A stretch of 64,000 nt of DNA from Rhodococcus ruber NBRC 15591. GTDB lineage: Bacteria > Actinomycetota > Actinomycetes > Mycobacteriales > Mycobacteriaceae. Within the stretch, counting starts at the first letter, position 1, and the number at the start of each line of letters is the position of its first letter. The position numbers and the translations under genes are program-made. The notes under the pieces are model-generated. The model worked only from the letters and a program-made list of their open reading frames with translations, did no database searches and was not told the origin of the DNA. The DNA is taken from positions 62,001 through 126,000 of the forward strand of contig NZ_BCXE01000016.1 of NCBI RefSeq assembly GCF_001894945.1, in the 5' to 3' direction. Of the stretch, positions 8,255 to 15,652 are shown piece after piece.

Positions 8255-8326
8255 CACCTACCCGGGTCCGCACCGTTGGCGGAGAATCGGGTCCGCGGCC
8301 CGGAGCGGGCAGGTACCGTTCGGCCC

Positions 8327-9547
8327 ATGGCCGGACGCGGGACGAGCGGCACCCACGGACGCCGGCGGACGGCGCTGGTCGTCGCGGGCGCGGGTGCGCG
8401 CGGCGCGTATCAAGCCGGCGCGATCACGACCCTGCTCCCCCGGATGACGCGGCACCACGGAGCGCCCCGGATCCTCGTCGGGACCAGCGCCGGCGCCATC
8501 AACGTGGTCGGGCTCGCCGCGTTCGCCGACGAGGGACTGCCGACGGCCGCCGAACGGCTCGTGGACCTGTGGACCGGGGTGGTCTCGTCCGACGTGTACT
8601 CGTCGGTGCACAGCGTGCTCGGCACCGGCGCGGCGTTCCTGGGTCAGGCGATCGGTTTTCCCCGCACGCGTCTCGTCAGCCTGCTCGACACGACCCCGAT
8701 CCGGGGGACCCTGCAGCGCCTGGTGCCGTGGGACCGGCTGCACGAGAACATCCGGGCCGGGCTGGTGGACGCGGTCGCGGTCGCGACGACGTCCGTGGCC
8801 ACCGGCGGGACGGTGGTGTTCGTGGAGAAGAACGCCTCGGTGCCGCTCCCCGAGTACGACATCCGCCGCAACATCAGCTACGTCGAGACGACCCTGACCG
8901 TCGACCACCTGCTGGCGTCCTCCGCGGTGCCGATCCTGTTCCGGCCCATCCACGTCACCGATCGGTGCGCCCCGCAGCGCTCCGGCTGGTACATCGACGG
9001 CGGTCTGCTGCTCAACACCCCGATCAAGCCCGCGCTCGTGCTCGGCGCGAACGACGTCGGCGTCGTGGCGACGCAGCCGCGGATGTGGCCCCCGCCGGTG
9101 TCCGCGCGCACCGGCAGGCGCCGACCGGCACCTCCCGACGTGGCCGGCGTCGCGGCCCTGGCGCTGCGGGCGATGCTCGGCTACCGGATGATCGAGGACC
9201 TGCACACGCTCGAGTTCCGCAATGCCCGCATCGCCCAGACCCGAGCCGTGTCCCCCACCGACCGTCCCATCGGGATCGACTTCGCCGGCCCGCCGCCCGG
9301 CCAGGCCGGGCGGATCGCCGAGATCGCGGAAGGGGTGGTCCGTCGCCGCCCCGCCGTGCGCCGGTTCCTGCGCAACCCCGCGCCGTCCGTCGTCGCACGA
9401 TTGATCGGTGGCGACGACGAGGATCGCGGCGACCTGCTCAGCTTCCTGCTGTTCGATCCCGAATTCACGTGCGCGATCGCCGAACTGGGTCGCGAACACG
9501 GCGCCGAACCGAGCACCGCACAGCCTGCCGCCGAGCTCCGGGCCTGA
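8327..9547 (+). CDS. Patatin-like phospholipase
   Basis: A 406-residue protein with all patatin landmarks: oxyanion loop GAGARGAYQAG (residues 21-31), nucleophile Ser54 in GTSAGAIN and catalytic Asp224 in DGGLLLNTP. It should be a Ser-Asp dyad acyl hydrolase of lipids; the substrate is unknown. ATG at 8327 is preferred over an upstream in-frame TTG because the family match begins right after it. A TACCGT -10 element seven bases before the ATG suggests a leaderless message. It converges on the MpaB-like gene with a 21-base gap. Confidence 0.92.
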   Translation: MAGRGTSGTHGRRRTALVVAGAGARGAYQAGAITTLLPRMTRHHGAPRILVGTSAGAINVVGLAAFADEGLPTAAERLVDLWTGVVSSDVYSSVHSVLGTGAAFLGQAIGFPRTRLVSLLDTTPIRGTLQRLVPWDRLHENIRAGLVDAVAVATTSVATGGTVVFVEKNASVPLPEYDIRRNISYVETTLTVDHLLASSAVPILFRPIHVTDRCAPQRSGWYIDGGLLLNTPIKPALVLGANDVGVVATQPRMWPPPVSARTGRRRPAPPDVAGVAALALRAMLGYRMIEDLHTLEFRNARIAQTRAVSPTDRPIGIDFAGPPPGQAGRIAEIAEGVVRRRPAVRRFLRNPAPSVVARLIGGDDEDRGDLLSFLLFDPEFTCAIAELGREHGAEPSTAQPAAELRA

Positions 9548-9568: not shown

Positions 9569-10453
9569 TCAGGGCCGTCGCGCCGGGGCCGGGCGCCGAT
9601 ATCCCACCGCATCCCGGTCACGGGGCCCGTACCGCGCCGTCCCGAAGGTCTCCACGAAACTGCGGTCGCGCCGTACCGGCCGCAGCCCGGTGGCGGCGAA
9701 GTAGGTGCGCACCGCGGATCGCGCGACGTAGGCCAGAGCGGGCCGCGGCTCGGGCAGGCTCTGCACGGCCCGTAGGCGGTCGTCGCAGAACGTCGACAGC
9801 ACCTCCGGCGCGAGCGGTCGCAGCGGACCCGGAAACCAGCGGTCCGCGAAGTCGTCGACGAGTCGCCGGGTCACGGCGAGCCCGTCGTCGGTGCGCGCGT
9901 ATTCCGCGGCCTCGAAGTCGGCGGTCCACCGCGCGAGCTCGTCGCGGGAGCCGGGGATGTCCGTGATGCGCTGGGCGGCCGCCACGCCGCGCCAGAAATG
10001 CCACTGCGCTTGAAGTTCCGTCCCGGAGAACGGCCGGGACCCGACGAGCGCGGCGATACGCTGCGGTTCGAGCACGAGCGTGGCGAGCGTGTAGAGCGAG
10101 TCCTCGTTGCGGATCGGGAAGTGCCCGTGGATCTCGTTGAGCCGCTCGATCCATGCGAGCCCCTCGGACGTGTCGTAGCCGAGTTCGAGGAACTTGCCGA
10201 AGAACACCATCGTGTCGTCGTTGCGCTTCGCCGTGCGGACGACGATGTCGCCGCGTCCGCGGCGGTGCAGGATCTTCGCGATGCCGGGCACGGCCACCTG
10301 CCGGATGAACGACACCGTGAACAACGCGTTGACGAGCATCGCGTTCCCGTGCAGGACCTCGAGCGAGAGTCGAGCGACGGCGCGATCGTCGCGGAGCGGA
10401 TCGAGACGCTCGATTTCCCGTCGGACCTGCCGTCCGATCGTCACATTCCTCAT
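9569..10453 (-). CDS. MpaB-like oxygenase (DUF2236 family)
   Basis: A 294-residue soluble protein. The segment VLHGNAMLVNALFTVSFIRQVAVPGIAKIL and the later WHFWRGVA and FADRWFPGPLRPL match the oxygenase MpaB/DUF2236 group, which includes latex-clearing-type and mycophenolic-acid oxygenases that bind b-type heme. I have not confirmed heme-ligand residues. The start ATG has a GGAGG site four bases upstream. It is divergent from a TetR gene with a 34-bp palindrome between them, so it is probably the regulator's main target. Confidence 0.78.
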   Translation of the reverse strand: MRNVTIGRQVRREIERLDPLRDDRAVARLSLEVLHGNAMLVNALFTVSFIRQVAVPGIAKILHRRGRGDIVVRTAKRNDDTMVFFGKFLELGYDTSEGLAWIERLNEIHGHFPIRNEDSLYTLATLVLEPQRIAALVGSRPFSGTELQAQWHFWRGVAAAQRITDIPGSRDELARWTADFEAAEYARTDDGLAVTRRLVDDFADRWFPGPLRPLAPEVLSTFCDDRLRAVQSLPEPRPALAYVARSAVRTYFAATGLRPVRRDRSFVETFGTARYGPRDRDAVGYRRPAPARRP

Positions 10454-10477: not shown

Positions 10478-10511
10478 CCCGTAGTGGACAACATATGTTG
10501 TCCACTACGGG
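10478..10511. promoter_or_regulatory. 34-bp perfect palindromic operator
   Basis: Bases 10478-10494 are the exact reverse complement of 10495-10511; the core reads GTGGACAACATATGTTGTCC. It lies between the divergent MpaB-like and TetR genes, 25 bases upstream of one start and 52 of the other. Long perfect dyads of this kind are typical TetR-dimer operators. Binding by the adjacent regulator is inferred. Confidence 0.85.
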
Positions 10512-10563
10512 CGGGTCAACGGCCGTTCCCGGTCCGACCGATCGGTCCGGCAGGATGGGATCC

Positions 10564-11184
10564 ATGCGCACCCCCCCGAGCCGCAGCTGGCACGGCGTCA
10601 GCGCCGACGACCGGCGCGCGCAGCGCCGTACCCGGATCCTGGCGGCGGGTACCGAACTGCTCGGCACCGGCGGAGGCCGCGCGGTCACGGTCCGCGCCGT
10701 GTGCCGGGCCGCCGGGGTCAGCGAGCGGTACTTCTACGAGAGTTTTCCCTCGCGCGACGAACTGGTCGCCGCAGTCTTCGCAACGACGGCGGAGGGCCTC
10801 ATGCGTCACATGCAGGCCGTCGTGGCCTCCGCCCCGGCGGAGGTCGCCGCGCGGGCCCGCGCCTTCGTCTCCGGAGCGATCGACTTCTTCGCCGCCGACC
10901 CCCGCCGCGGCCGGGTGCTGGTCCGCGAGGCGATGACCGAGCCGGCGTTGTCGCAGCAGGGCCTGCACGCAGCACCCGCCCTCCTCGGCGCCCTGCTCGT
11001 CGGCGTCGCTGCGCCGGAACCGGACGCCGAGTCCCGGCTGATCAGCGGCGCCGTCCTGGGCCTGGGCATCGGGGCGCTGATCGTCGCGTGGATCGACGGG
11101 CAGGTCGACGTCGAGCGAGAGGCGCTCGTCGAGCACTGCACCCTGCTCGTCCGACGCGCCGTCACCCCCTCGGAGTCCGGGTAG
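10564..11184 (+). CDS. TetR/AcrR family transcriptional regulator
   Basis: A 206-residue protein with an N-terminal TetR helix-turn-helix (about residues 17-63: RRTRILAAGTELL, then VTVRAVCRAAGVSERYFYESFPSRDEL) and a helical ligand-binding domain. The recognition helix is VSERYFYESF. The ATG at 10564 was chosen over an upstream TTG that would begin inside the operator. The adjacent palindrome and divergent oxygenase imply repression of that oxygenase and itself; the inducer is unknown. Confidence 0.93.
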   Translation: MRTPPSRSWHGVSADDRRAQRRTRILAAGTELLGTGGGRAVTVRAVCRAAGVSERYFYESFPSRDELVAAVFATTAEGLMRHMQAVVASAPAEVAARARAFVSGAIDFFAADPRRGRVLVREAMTEPALSQQGLHAAPALLGALLVGVAAPEPDAESRLISGAVLGLGIGALIVAWIDGQVDVEREALVEHCTLLVRRAVTPSESG

Positions 11185-11618: not shown

Positions 11619-12176
11619 ATGGGAGAGCGCGCCCCGATACGTCCCGACCGGAAGACGGTCCCGAACGGCTCGGACGAGGGCGGAGCCTTCGCGTCGCGGA
11701 CCGGCGGCGAGCCGCAGCTGGGGCGACTGCTCGGGGCGATACTGCCGCTGACGCACCCCGGAGGGCTGTGGTCCACGACGCGGGGGCTCGTGAAAGGAAC
11801 GTGCAGCGCCGCGGCGGCGGTGGGCGGACGGGTGCTCGGTCTCCGCCACCCGGGCGCCCGGCAGGCGGCCGACCCCGTCCTGCCGGCGAACTGGTGGCCC
11901 GACGACCTCGATCTCGAGGCGGCGGCCCGGAAGTGCCCGGGGGTGGATCTGTATGCGGTGACCGTCGACTTCGTCGAGCGCCACCACGGGTTCGCCCTGT
12001 CGATGCTGGGCGGGATCCCGTCCTGGACCGCCGCCTGGTACTCCCGGGTCGGCGTGGCCTATCTGCAGGCCCACCGGATCGCCCGCCCGGACCGGGACGA
12101 ACGGGCCCGCCGCGGGGCACCTCCGTCGGCGCGGGCGACCCGTCCCGGCCTGCAGGTCGTGCACGGCGCCGAGTAG
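11619..12176 (+). CDS. Hypothetical protein, unrecognised family
   Basis: A 185-residue protein I cannot assign. The N-terminal 30 residues are polar; a Gly/Ala-rich stretch with modest hydrophobicity follows (RLLGAILPLTHPGGLW and CSAAAAVGGRVLGL), then a Trp-rich central part (LPANWWPDDLDLE, VDFVERHHGF, IPSWTAAWYSRVGVAYLQ) and a basic tail. Codon bias and an AGGTAGGGAAGC ribosome site ahead of the ATG support this frame over the competing antisense frame. No clear signal peptide. Possibly lineage-restricted. Confidence 0.6.
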   Translation: MGERAPIRPDRKTVPNGSDEGGAFASRTGGEPQLGRLLGAILPLTHPGGLWSTTRGLVKGTCSAAAAVGGRVLGLRHPGARQAADPVLPANWWPDDLDLEAAARKCPGVDLYAVTVDFVERHHGFALSMLGGIPSWTAAWYSRVGVAYLQAHRIARPDRDERARRGAPPSARATRPGLQVVHGAE

Positions 12177-12293: not shown

Positions 12294-13520
12294 TCACGGC
12301 AGTGCGGACGGGCCCAGGACCCGGCCCCGGACGTCGGCCAGCACCCGGCGCACGAACTGCTCGTGCCCGATGCGCGCCCGCTGACCGCACTGCGGCACCA
12401 GGACGCTGACGGTGCCGTCCGCGAGTTCCTCGTCGCCGACGATCGCGAGGTAGGGATCGCGGTGCAGGCGCGCAGCGCGGATCCGGCTGCCCAGCGATCC
12501 ACCGGAGAGCACCTCGGCGCGAATCCCCTCGTCCAGCAGCCTGTCCCGCAACGCGCCGGCCTCGTCGCGGTGTGGGTCACGGACCGGCAGGACCGCCACT
12601 TGGCGGGGCGAGAGCCACGGCGGCATGCGCCCTTCGAAGCGTTCGACGAGCATCGCGGTCAGCCGCTCCATCGATCCGAGCACACCCCGGTGGATCATCA
12701 CGGGCCGGTGCCTGTGCCCGTCCTCGCCGGTGTATTCGAGGCCGAAACGCTCGGGTTGAGTGAAGTCGAACTGGACGGTGGACACGGTCTCCTCGCGCCC
12801 GTGCGCCCCGGCGACCTGGACGTCGATCTTCGGACCGTAGAACGCGGCCTCCCCCTCGGCTTCGAAGAAGTCCAGCCCACACCGTTCGAGCGCACCGCGC
12901 AGCTGACCCTGAGCATGCGCCCACTGCTCGCCGGAGCCGAGATAGCTGCCCCCGGCACCGCGGAGGGAGAGGCGGTAGCGCCGGGCGTCGAGCCCGAGAA
13001 CCCGATAGCAGCGCTCGATCGCACTCAACGCGAGTTCCACCTCCGCACCGGCCTGTTCGGGCGCGCAGAACACATGCGCGTCGTCGAGACCGATCTGCCG
13101 GACCCGGCTCAGGCCGCCGAGCACGCCCGACAGTTCGCTGCGGAACATCGATCCCAGCTCCGACAGGCGGATCGGCAGGTCGCGGTAGCTGCGGGCCCGC
13201 GAGGCGAAGATCTGGGCGTGATGGGGACAGTTGGCGGGCCGCAGGACGAAACTCTCGCCGCCGACCCGCATCTCGGGGAACATGTCGTCGGCGAACTTGG
13301 ACCAGTGGCCCGACCGGACGAACAGCTCCTTCTTGGCGAGCACCGGGGTGTAGACGCGGCGACAGCCGGACTCGGCCGCCACCTCGGCGGCGAAGGCCTC
13401 GAGCTCGGCACGGATCACCGCACCGTCCGGCAGCCACAGCGGAAGACCCGCACCCACAATCGGCGCGCTGGCGAACATGTCGAGTTCGCGACCGAGCACT
13501 CGGTGATCTGCACCGTTCAT
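12294..13520 (-). CDS. thrS: Short threonyl-tRNA synthetase paralogue lacking TGS and editing domains
   Basis: A 408-residue protein that aligns by eye with only the catalytic and anticodon-binding domains of bacterial ThrRS (normally 640-690 residues); the TGS and editing domains are absent. Active-site zinc ligands are all present: Cys98 (PANCPHH), His149 (DDAHVF) and His277 (VMIHRG). The motif 2 Arg is Arg127 (MFRSE), and motif 3 reads HRGVLGSMER. Motif 2 is divergent: the usual CHRNEPSG is replaced by MFRSELSG. It is probably an active but non-proofreading ThrRS, or a resistance or stress copy backing up a main thrS outside this window. An AACAGGAA site precedes the ATG, and a threonine attenuator lies upstream. 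Confidence 0.9.
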   Translation of the reverse strand: MNGADHRVLGRELDMFASAPIVGAGLPLWLPDGAVIRAELEAFAAEVAAESGCRRVYTPVLAKKELFVRSGHWSKFADDMFPEMRVGGESFVLRPANCPHHAQIFASRARSYRDLPIRLSELGSMFRSELSGVLGGLSRVRQIGLDDAHVFCAPEQAGAEVELALSAIERCYRVLGLDARRYRLSLRGAGGSYLGSGEQWAHAQGQLRGALERCGLDFFEAEGEAAFYGPKIDVQVAGAHGREETVSTVQFDFTQPERFGLEYTGEDGHRHRPVMIHRGVLGSMERLTAMLVERFEGRMPPWLSPRQVAVLPVRDPHRDEAGALRDRLLDEGIRAEVLSGGSLGSRIRAARLHRDPYLAIVGDEELADGTVSVLVPQCGQRARIGHEQFVRRVLADVRGRVLGPSALP

Positions 13521-13578
13521 TTCCTGTTCCTCGACTCTCGTCTCGGCGAGAGGGAGCGACGTGCCCGAACACGACGAA

Positions 13579-13605
13579 AGCCCCGGGACGTCGACTCCCG
13601 GGGCT
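13579..13605 (-). terminator. Attenuator terminator of the thrS paralogue
   Basis: On the minus strand, AGCCCCGGGA (13605-13596) pairs perfectly with TCCCGGGGCT (13588-13579) around a seven-base loop. TTTCGTCGTGTT follows, the most T-rich tail of any hairpin near here. It lies between the leader peptide stop and the synthetase ATG, so it would stop transcription before the gene. Confidence 0.8.
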
Positions 13606-13616
13606 CGCTTGGTGGG

Positions 13617-13679
13617 TCAGCAGTGAGCGACGCGGCGCCGGAAGGCATCCGGCGTCGTCGTGACCTGCTGAGCGTTCAT
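13617..13679 (-). CDS. Threonine leader peptide (20 aa)
   Basis: A minus-strand frame encodes MNAQQVTTTPDAFRRRVAHC and stops at TGA 13617. Codons 7-9 are three consecutive ACG threonine codons. A GTG directly ahead of the ATG (13682) could be the true first codon: it starts seven bases after a TACGAT -10 element, so translation would be leaderless. The threonine codons lie in the 5' arm of a hairpin (CGCCGGA pairing with TCCGGCG). A segment on its 3' side (TTCCGG, then TCGCT) can instead pair with AGCGA and CCGGGA in the terminator's 5' arm. This is the layout of ribosome-mediated attenuation. Confidence 0.8.
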   Translation of the reverse strand: MNAQQVTTTPDAFRRRVAHC

Positions 13680-13689
13680 CACGACCGGA

Positions 13690-13719
13690 ATCGTACGGCC
13701 GGTTTCGCCCGGAAATCAA
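13690..13719 (-). promoter_or_regulatory. Promoter of the thrS leader
   Basis: On the minus strand a TTGATT -35 (13719-13714) and a TACGAT -10 (13695-13690) are separated by 18 bases. The predicted start of transcription falls at or next to the leader's GTG/ATG codons. This is the clearest sigma-A type promoter in the window. Confidence 0.7.
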
Positions 13720-13808
13720 CGGCGAAGAGCGATTGCATCCCGGAGCTCCTGCGCGCCCGGGTTTTTCATCGTCTTTTCGGTAGGCGGCCGTTCGGCTCGG
13801 GCGGGGAC

Positions 13809-13829
13809 CAGGAATTCGGAGAATTCCTG
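13809..13829. repeat. Inverted repeat upstream of the thrS promoter
   Basis: CAGGAATTC (13809-13817) and GAATTCCTG (13821-13829) form a perfect dyad with a three-base centre in an unusually AT-rich stretch, about 90 bases upstream of the thrS -35. It could be a protein-binding site; no regulator gene is adjacent. Confidence 0.5.
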
Positions 13830-13891
13830 CGTTCCGTCCAGGGCGAATTATCCGCGCGGTGGTGAACCGGGAAGATCTCCGACGAGGACGC

Positions 13892-13922
13892 GGGCCGTCG
13901 CACCCCGAGGGTGCGACGGCCC
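13892..13922 (-). terminator. aroK-aroB operon terminator
   Basis: A perfect 14-bp stem: 13892-13905 pairs with 13909-13922 around a three-base loop. It begins 35 bases after the aroB stop on the minus strand. There is no T tract. The 437 bases between thrS and aroB hold this hairpin, the attenuator, its promoter and the inverted repeat. Confidence 0.75.
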
Positions 13923-13957
13923 GTCGACGACGGTCGGCAGCTCAGCCGGTCAGCAGC

Positions 13958-15652
<1,695 letters not shown>

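Follow-up and report, generated by a model that had tools for sequence, protein, structure and literature searches.

The short threonyl-tRNA synthetase (ThrRS) gene of Rhodococcus ruber NBRC 15591 is very probably (at a probability of about 0.85, judged from the sequence and its relatives) controlled by a ribosome-mediated transcription attenuator of the trp/leu/pheST kind, and the leader in front of it most likely lets the cell switch on a spare ThrRS when charged threonine tRNA is short. This attenuator is a well-supported, widespread and much better documented case of a known type of control, since thrL of Streptomyces lividans has already been described (PMC8079986) and attenuators of trpS and leuS in Streptomyces have been predicted (PMC1262725).

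Genomic Context and the Short thrS Gene

On the minus strand of the window (the whole stretch of DNA analyzed, 64,000 nucleotides long), aroB is followed by a stable hairpin and then, in this order, by the promoter and short ORF of the leader, two hairpins of which the second has a weak T tail, and a gene of 408 codons. The aroB gene, recognized by Pfam, precedes the leader and has its stop at 13958. Directly 3' of it lies a very stable hairpin (13880..13935, minus strand; -41.6 kcal/mol, z -5.7), which is probably the aroB terminator; if so, the leader and thrS would form a separate transcription unit. As for the other neighbors, Pfam assigns 8276-9547 (plus strand) to a patatin-like phospholipase, 9569-10453 (minus strand) to an MpaB/rubber-oxygenase-like protein, and 10495-11184 (plus strand) to a TetR regulator, none of them with an evident link to thrS; an ORF of 185 aa downstream of thrS (11619-12176, plus strand) is without a Pfam match and may not be a gene.

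The 408-codon gene (12294..13520, minus strand) encodes a short ThrRS consisting of catalytic and anticodon-binding domains, as indicated by Pfam, TIGR00418 and alignment. It scores 439.8 bits against TIGR00418 (cut-off 383.65), with the match running from model position 171 on, and its Pfam matches are tRNA-synt_2b and HGTP_anticodon only; neither the TGS domain nor the tRNA_SAD (editing) domain was matched. In an alignment with 1nyq, the ThrRS of S. aureus, the sequences NCPHH, DDAHVF and MIHRG face identical residues or D/H and H, and the Cys, His and His at the positions that presumably bind zinc in the ThrRS catalytic family are all present. The nearest named relative in the scan is the protein of Rhodococcus aetherivorans, with 90% amino-acid identity. 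The genome carries a second thrS (at C17), an 818-codon frame that matches tRNA_SAD and shares 43% identity with the short protein over residues 4-373. Against the ThrRS of 1nyq, the short protein reaches 375 bits, and against this second copy 291 bits. The two values come from different programs and can therefore do no more than suggest that the gene arose by transfer and not by duplication.

Promoter and Leader ORF

The leader promoter (13690..13719, minus strand) consists of TTGATT at 13719-13714 and TACGAT at 13695-13690, separated by an 18-nt spacer, and is identified by its sequence and by the spacing found in relatives. Among 79 distinct related promoters, with the -10 taken as TANNNT, the start codon always follows at 6-8 nt (7 nt in 62, 6 nt in 15 and 8 nt in 2), a spread somewhat favored by the spacing rule through which the leader start was chosen wherever several codons were possible. 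Most transcription starts of WblC-activated promoters are reported to lie 7 or 8 bp past the -10 in the relevant passages of PMC7157823, and a leaderless leader transcript would fit these distances.

The leader ORF (13617..13682, minus strand) is of the thrL type, with a probable GTG start, 21 codons, a TGA stop at 13619-13617 and the predicted peptide (V/M)MNAQQVTTTPDAFRRRVAHC; three consecutive ACG threonine codons lie at 13661-13653. The original prediction described a leaderless leader peptide of 20 residues. The short, threonine-bearing ORF is indeed there, and its start was probably placed one codon late: GTG 13682 is more likely than ATG 13679, because the -10 spacing is 7 nt in 62 of the 79 promoters and because R. 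aetherivorans has ATGATG at the same place, and the peptide would then have 21 residues.

At least two consecutive Thr codons occur in all 48 distinct leaders, and at least three in 46 of them, while leader length ranges from 16 to 22 codons among relatives. The codons of these runs are ACG (136), ACC (8) and ACT (1), and the run opens with ACG in 42 leaders, with ACC in 5 and with ACT in 1; in the 34 ORFs of the window, ACG makes up 305 of 927 Thr codons. The overlapping hairpin imposes part of this bias, and the leaders are relatives of one another. ACG is favored over the commoner ACC even at the first codon of the run (42/48), a preference that may perhaps tune the switch to one tRNA-Thr isoacceptor.

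Hairpin 1 and the Terminator

Hairpin 1 (segment 1:2; 13636..13654, minus strand) pairs CGCCGGA (13654-13648) with TCCGGCG (13642-13636), and its 5' arm overlaps the last Thr codon. The stop codon of the leader lies 5-18 nt 3' of its 3' arm in all 48 distinct leaders. The terminator hairpin, GCCCCGGGA-GTCGACG-TCCCGGGGC (13580..13604, minus strand), has its arms at 13604-13596 and 13588-13580, which form nine pairs plus one A-T, and its 5' arm doubles as the partner of segment 2. Sequence, folding and covariation all point to both hairpins. A perfect terminator of ten pairs with a T-rich tail had been proposed; the ten pairs are confirmed, whereas the T tail is short and weak (CTTTCGTCG) and a terminator scanner did not report this terminator in the window. 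The leader at 13679-13575 folds with a z of -4.5, none of 200 shuffles being as stable, and a terminator hairpin is predicted from sequence in 48 of 48 distinct leaders, with its bounds set by hand in L055 and L059.

Hairpin and terminator covary. In a covariance-model alignment of 47 leaders (46 distinct rows), which is fitted to the proposed structure and hence leans towards it, 99.5% of the cells of the two hairpins are paired, against only 29-64% in slid controls. Changes on both sides were found at 6 of the 14 pairs, and doubly changed cells number 19, where shuffling gives 3.4 on average. One leader, L068, was left out of this alignment; its score with model R1 was only 16 bits (E 0.0087). 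A MAFFT alignment of 38 distinct family leaders analyzed with RNAalifold had misaligned the linkers, which differ in length, and so yielded just 4 pairs with no double change; it was replaced by the model-fitted one.

The Proposed Antiterminator Pairing

Segment 2 of the proposed antiterminator (13626..13643, minus strand) comprises TTCCGG at 13643-13638, which can pair with CCGGGA at 13601-13596, and TCGCT at 13630-13626, which can pair with AGCGA at 13609-13605; flank covariation speaks for it, with folding being weak evidence by itself. Much of the competing pairing comes free because CCGG is self-complementary. The positions flanking this core were compared in 15 distinct combinations from 47 leaders (L073, without a CCGG core, was skipped). 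At the first two flank positions, 12 of 15 and 12 of 15 combinations are paired, where shuffles pair 9.3 and 8.2 on average (jointly 0 of 10,000 shuffles, in a permutation test that is inflated, like the one below, by the relatedness of the sequences), and the third position, with 7 of 15 paired and a shuffled mean of 7.3, does not covary. The antiterminator flanks hence covary at two of three positions, more weakly than the hairpin and terminator. Among 32 combinations, cognate duplexes of segment 2 and the terminator arm average -15.5 kcal/mol versus -14.2 kcal/mol for permuted ones (1 in 20,000), and seven of the 32 are weaker than their own row average (L045, L048, L049, L050, L058, L069 and L072).

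When a stalled ribosome is simulated in folding, the antiterminator appears in all 48 leaders (at least 9 pairs; at least 8 under a stricter count), but the same number of pairs is reached in a median of 28 of 100 controls with shuffled linkers, so that this folding alone proves little. With the full transcript and the stalled ribosome masked, the terminator is still part of the minimum-energy fold in 45 of 48 leaders; antitermination would therefore have to be kinetic, with the antiterminator forming first. In the truncated transcript without a ribosome, at least 9 antiterminator pairs are already formed in 14 of 48, and hairpin 1 is absent from the fold in 10 of 48. Masking up to 9 nt past the stop, as by a ribosome at the stop codon, leaves a terminator of 9-15 pairs in 48 of 48, largely by construction.

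Distribution and Linkage to the Short thrS

The short protein is matched at E 1e-110 or better in 39 of 401 genomes of the family, the window included, and at 1e-100 in 2 of 18 genomes of the genus. All 46 whole-gene loci (39 from the family and 7 from named Rhodococcus) have the whole arrangement in front of them: the short ORF is apparently leaderless and contains 2-3 Thr codons in succession, a hairpin overlaps it, and a terminator rich in G+C follows. These loci correspond to 38 distinct leader regions, and some of the named contigs are perhaps from the same strain as other genomes counted. The named-contig set held 20 loci, of which 7 were counted while L025 and 12 Saccharibacteria loci were set apart. 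L025 (R. tukisamuensis) covers residues 230-407 only, in a 230-codon frame, with no leader-like ORF in the 700 nt upstream. The Saccharibacteria loci are long open frames, 11 of 583-653 codons and one running off the end; a 700-nt screen, which reaches little beyond these frames, gave a leader-like ORF in one of them (L020), taken as chance. In the phylum sample, 12 of 396 genomes match; besides the window, 10 of the 11 show a leader whose Thr run is three codons or longer, and at the exception (L071), a full-length thrS with a 628-codon frame and tRNA_SAD, no leader was seen.

Searches with covariance models recovered leaders before the short thrS in the family, in the genus of genome G423 and in the class sample. 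Model R2 matches 70 places in 67 of the 401 family genomes at E 0.001, and all 39 short thrS genes of the family start 34-63 nt past an R2 match of E 1e-10 or better (from model end to match start). Further confident matches, in G133, G197 and G292 (1e-10 or better) and in G360 (3.5e-7), precede thrS genes broken over several frames; of the 27 weak family places, 10 were inspected and none adjoins a thrS match. The genus of G423, probably Streptomyces to judge from its S. lividans-like leaders, has R2 matches at 1e-5 at 102 places in 101 of 199 genomes. Thirty-four of these places were inspected: 32 precede a short thrS (the one at L147 is in two pieces and looks interrupted), one, at L152, precedes a truncated remnant, and L149 (E 1.5e-6) counts as background. 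For the class sample, matches at 1e-6 or better occur in 28 of 197 genomes, and 28 of 28 precede a short thrS; these are 26 loci (those of G524, G566 and G577 being shared with the phylum sample), the window and G423. Model R1 gave no match at the locus of the genome's other thrS (L002). Confident matches that were inspected adjoin a short thrS or its remnants.

Within the available flanks, aroB is found only in the window and in R. aetherivorans-type loci (3 of 48), so that leader and gene appear to stay together while their neighbors change. Leaders also stand ahead of broken, interrupted or truncated copies of the short thrS (L105, L106, L107, L108, L147 and L152), showing that the spare gene has decayed repeatedly with its leader still recognizable.

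Every element that the original prediction had named, namely the promoter, the leader with three ACG codons, the hairpin, the competing pairing and the terminator arms, is present in the sequence, and its reading as an attenuator is supported by Thr codons in 48 of 48 distinct leaders, by a covarying hairpin and terminator, and by flanks that covary at two of three positions. It would have been refuted by a lack of conservation of the Thr codons or of the pairings in relatives, and no such lack was found.

Proposed Mechanism

From the comparison of anatomy, conservation, covariation and gene linkage, we infer a leaderless start, ribosome stalling, antitermination and a spare-enzyme role. The start codon of the leader would also be the start of transcription, and a ribosome would translate the leader during its synthesis. 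When charged Thr-tRNA is plentiful, the ribosome would reach the stop codon, 5-18 nt past the 3' arm of hairpin 1, and cover segment 2; the terminator could then form, and transcription would mostly end ahead of thrS. When charged Thr-tRNA is short, the ribosome would stall on the Thr codons, cover the 5' arm of hairpin 1 and free segment 2, which could pair with the 5' arm of the terminator, letting RNA polymerase read into the short thrS so that the spare ThrRS is made. A trp-type model of this sort would explain the Thr codons and where they lie relative to hairpin 1, the distance of the stop codon, and the presence of competing pairings.

A WblC/WhiB7-like Promoter Box and Alternative Explanations

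Of the 84 distinct promoters outside the Rhodococcus-type set, 21 carry an exact GAAAWY box at -35 to -31 before the -10 and 55 carry one with no more than a single mismatch, compared with 0 exact and 0-3 one-mismatch occurrences in seven control windows. Box and position match those described for WblC in passages of PMC7157823. Among the promoters of L044-L074 and L119-L178, this WblC/WhiB7-like GAAAWY, where present, lies about 33 nt ahead of the -10, which suggests activation of the same transcript by antibiotic stress. The box in front of the leader outside Rhodococcus is a new observation. Among the 17 distinct Rhodococcus-type promoters, the window's included, there is no exact box, and a one-mismatch box occurs in 7, with as many as 8 in a control window. 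No statement can therefore be made for the promoter of the window itself, in which an exact GAAAWY box 3 nt before the -35, as in the WblC/WhiB7 regulon, is absent.

The box raises the question of whether the leader senses general translation stress, caused by any antibiotic that slows ribosomes, with the Thr codons mattering little. Besides the box counts, this explanation draws on PMC7157823, where thrS2 of S. coelicolor is listed among the WblC-activated genes (Table 1; neither a locus number nor an attenuator is given in the relevant passages) and a uORF is said to mediate attenuation of wblC itself. The box, however, would work at the promoter and not at the leader, it is never exact in the Rhodococcus-type promoters, and Thr runs occur in all 48 distinct leaders, even where the overlapping hairpin changes. 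A WblC input and a Thr input can also coexist, and we consider general stress sensing unlikely as a replacement for threonine control.

Far less probable is a reading in which the conserved TTP is a nascent-chain arrest motif that acts as a peptide and not through the supply of Thr-tRNA. The codon directly 3' of the Thr run is indeed Pro in 45 of 48 distinct leaders (Gly in 3), but this codon belongs to the hairpin arm CGCCGG, and the residues ahead of the run vary. In L064, L068 and L073, where the hairpin arm differs, Pro is lost and the Thr run is kept as TTTT, TTTTT and TTT, respectively, which argues for selection on Thr. The least probable explanation of all is that the hairpin is a processing element or a terminator that acts constitutively, that the ORF is incidental and that threonine plays no regulatory part: G+C-rich hairpins are common, and all ten weak family matches inspected lie away from thrS, yet such an element would hardly come with consecutive Thr codons before a ThrRS gene and a start at a near-constant distance from the -10 in several families. 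Control by a T-box was considered and rejected, as neither the window nor 17 related loci matched the Rfam T-box or any other family at gathering scores; at 13400-13900 there were only sub-threshold Rfam matches. The trp-type attenuator is thus the reading that we retain.

Relation to Known Systems

Two ThrRS genes of Bacillus subtilis are reportedly under antitermination control, and thrZ of this organism is controlled by a T-box. Unlike these genes with their tRNA-binding T-box, the leader described here matches no Rfam family. A spare tryptophanyl-tRNA synthetase of S. coelicolor is said to be under attenuation; it resembles the present case in being a spare enzyme and differs in responding to tryptophan.

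The closest described system is thrL (MKRVRPFLETTPGFVPAR) before thrS in S. lividans TK24 (SLIV_19412/SLIV_19410), published in 2021 (PMC8079986). It is likewise a leaderless short ORF with two consecutive Thr codons before thrS, and its TTP...VPAR ending is also the ending of leaders here in g23, g10 and g34 genomes. The same arrangement, a leaderless Thr-codon ORF before thrS, was found in the window, where the transcription start is placed from the -10 spacing. The original prediction was accordingly mistaken in holding that no actinobacterial thrS with this control had been described. In the relevant passages of PMC8079986, thrL has one hairpin and no U-rich stretch, termination is called unclear, and neither an antiterminator nor a phylogenetic analysis is presented. 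Table 4 of that paper also lists an S. lividans metL leader containing TTTPGAR, which resembles the Thr leaders and is possibly a mixed or misassigned signal.

A study of 2005 (PMC1262725) predicted attenuators ahead of trpS and leuS in Streptomyces; they combine a leader peptide, a terminator and an antiterminator before an actinobacterial synthetase gene, the elements also proposed here, for other amino acids. According to the relevant passages of that paper, threonine operons showed no conserved RNA structures upstream. In Anabaena, T2 is an inducible second ThrRS with impaired proofreading; it is induced by low zinc via Zur, and no leader peptide is mentioned in the relevant passages (PMC4787780).

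In a mostly open-access literature, where absence is weak evidence, no report of an attenuated ThrRS gene with a leader peptide in Rhodococcus was found, and PMC8079986 was the only report found of a thrS attenuator or leader peptide in Actinobacteria. With similarly partial coverage, ribosome-mediated attenuation of an actinobacterial aminoacyl-tRNA synthetase gave no further report under those terms, and no report joined three of the four topics WhiB7, thrS, leader peptide and Nocardia.

Significance

These comparisons turn one Streptomyces table entry into a conserved class of regulatory RNA, tied to one gene family and matched by no Rfam 15 family in the window or the 17 related loci. In the cell, the spare ThrRS would be made at low tRNA-Thr charging, in many lineages after activation of an antibiotic-stress promoter, and would serve as a spare enzyme under threonine, ThrRS or antibiotic stress. 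A broader idea, which we put forward tentatively and at somewhat less than even odds, is that the leader and the short ThrRS form one mobile, two-input stress cassette across Actinomycetota. In most lineages, a WhiB7-type promoter would respond to translation-blocking antibiotics, the Thr attenuator would gate the transcript by tRNA-Thr charging, and a ThrRS without an editing domain might keep translation going at the cost of Ser-for-Thr errors or resist natural ThrRS inhibitors. The leader class would thereby link a proofreading-less synthetase to the charging of tRNA-Thr and to an antibiotic-stress regulator in a way that can be tested.
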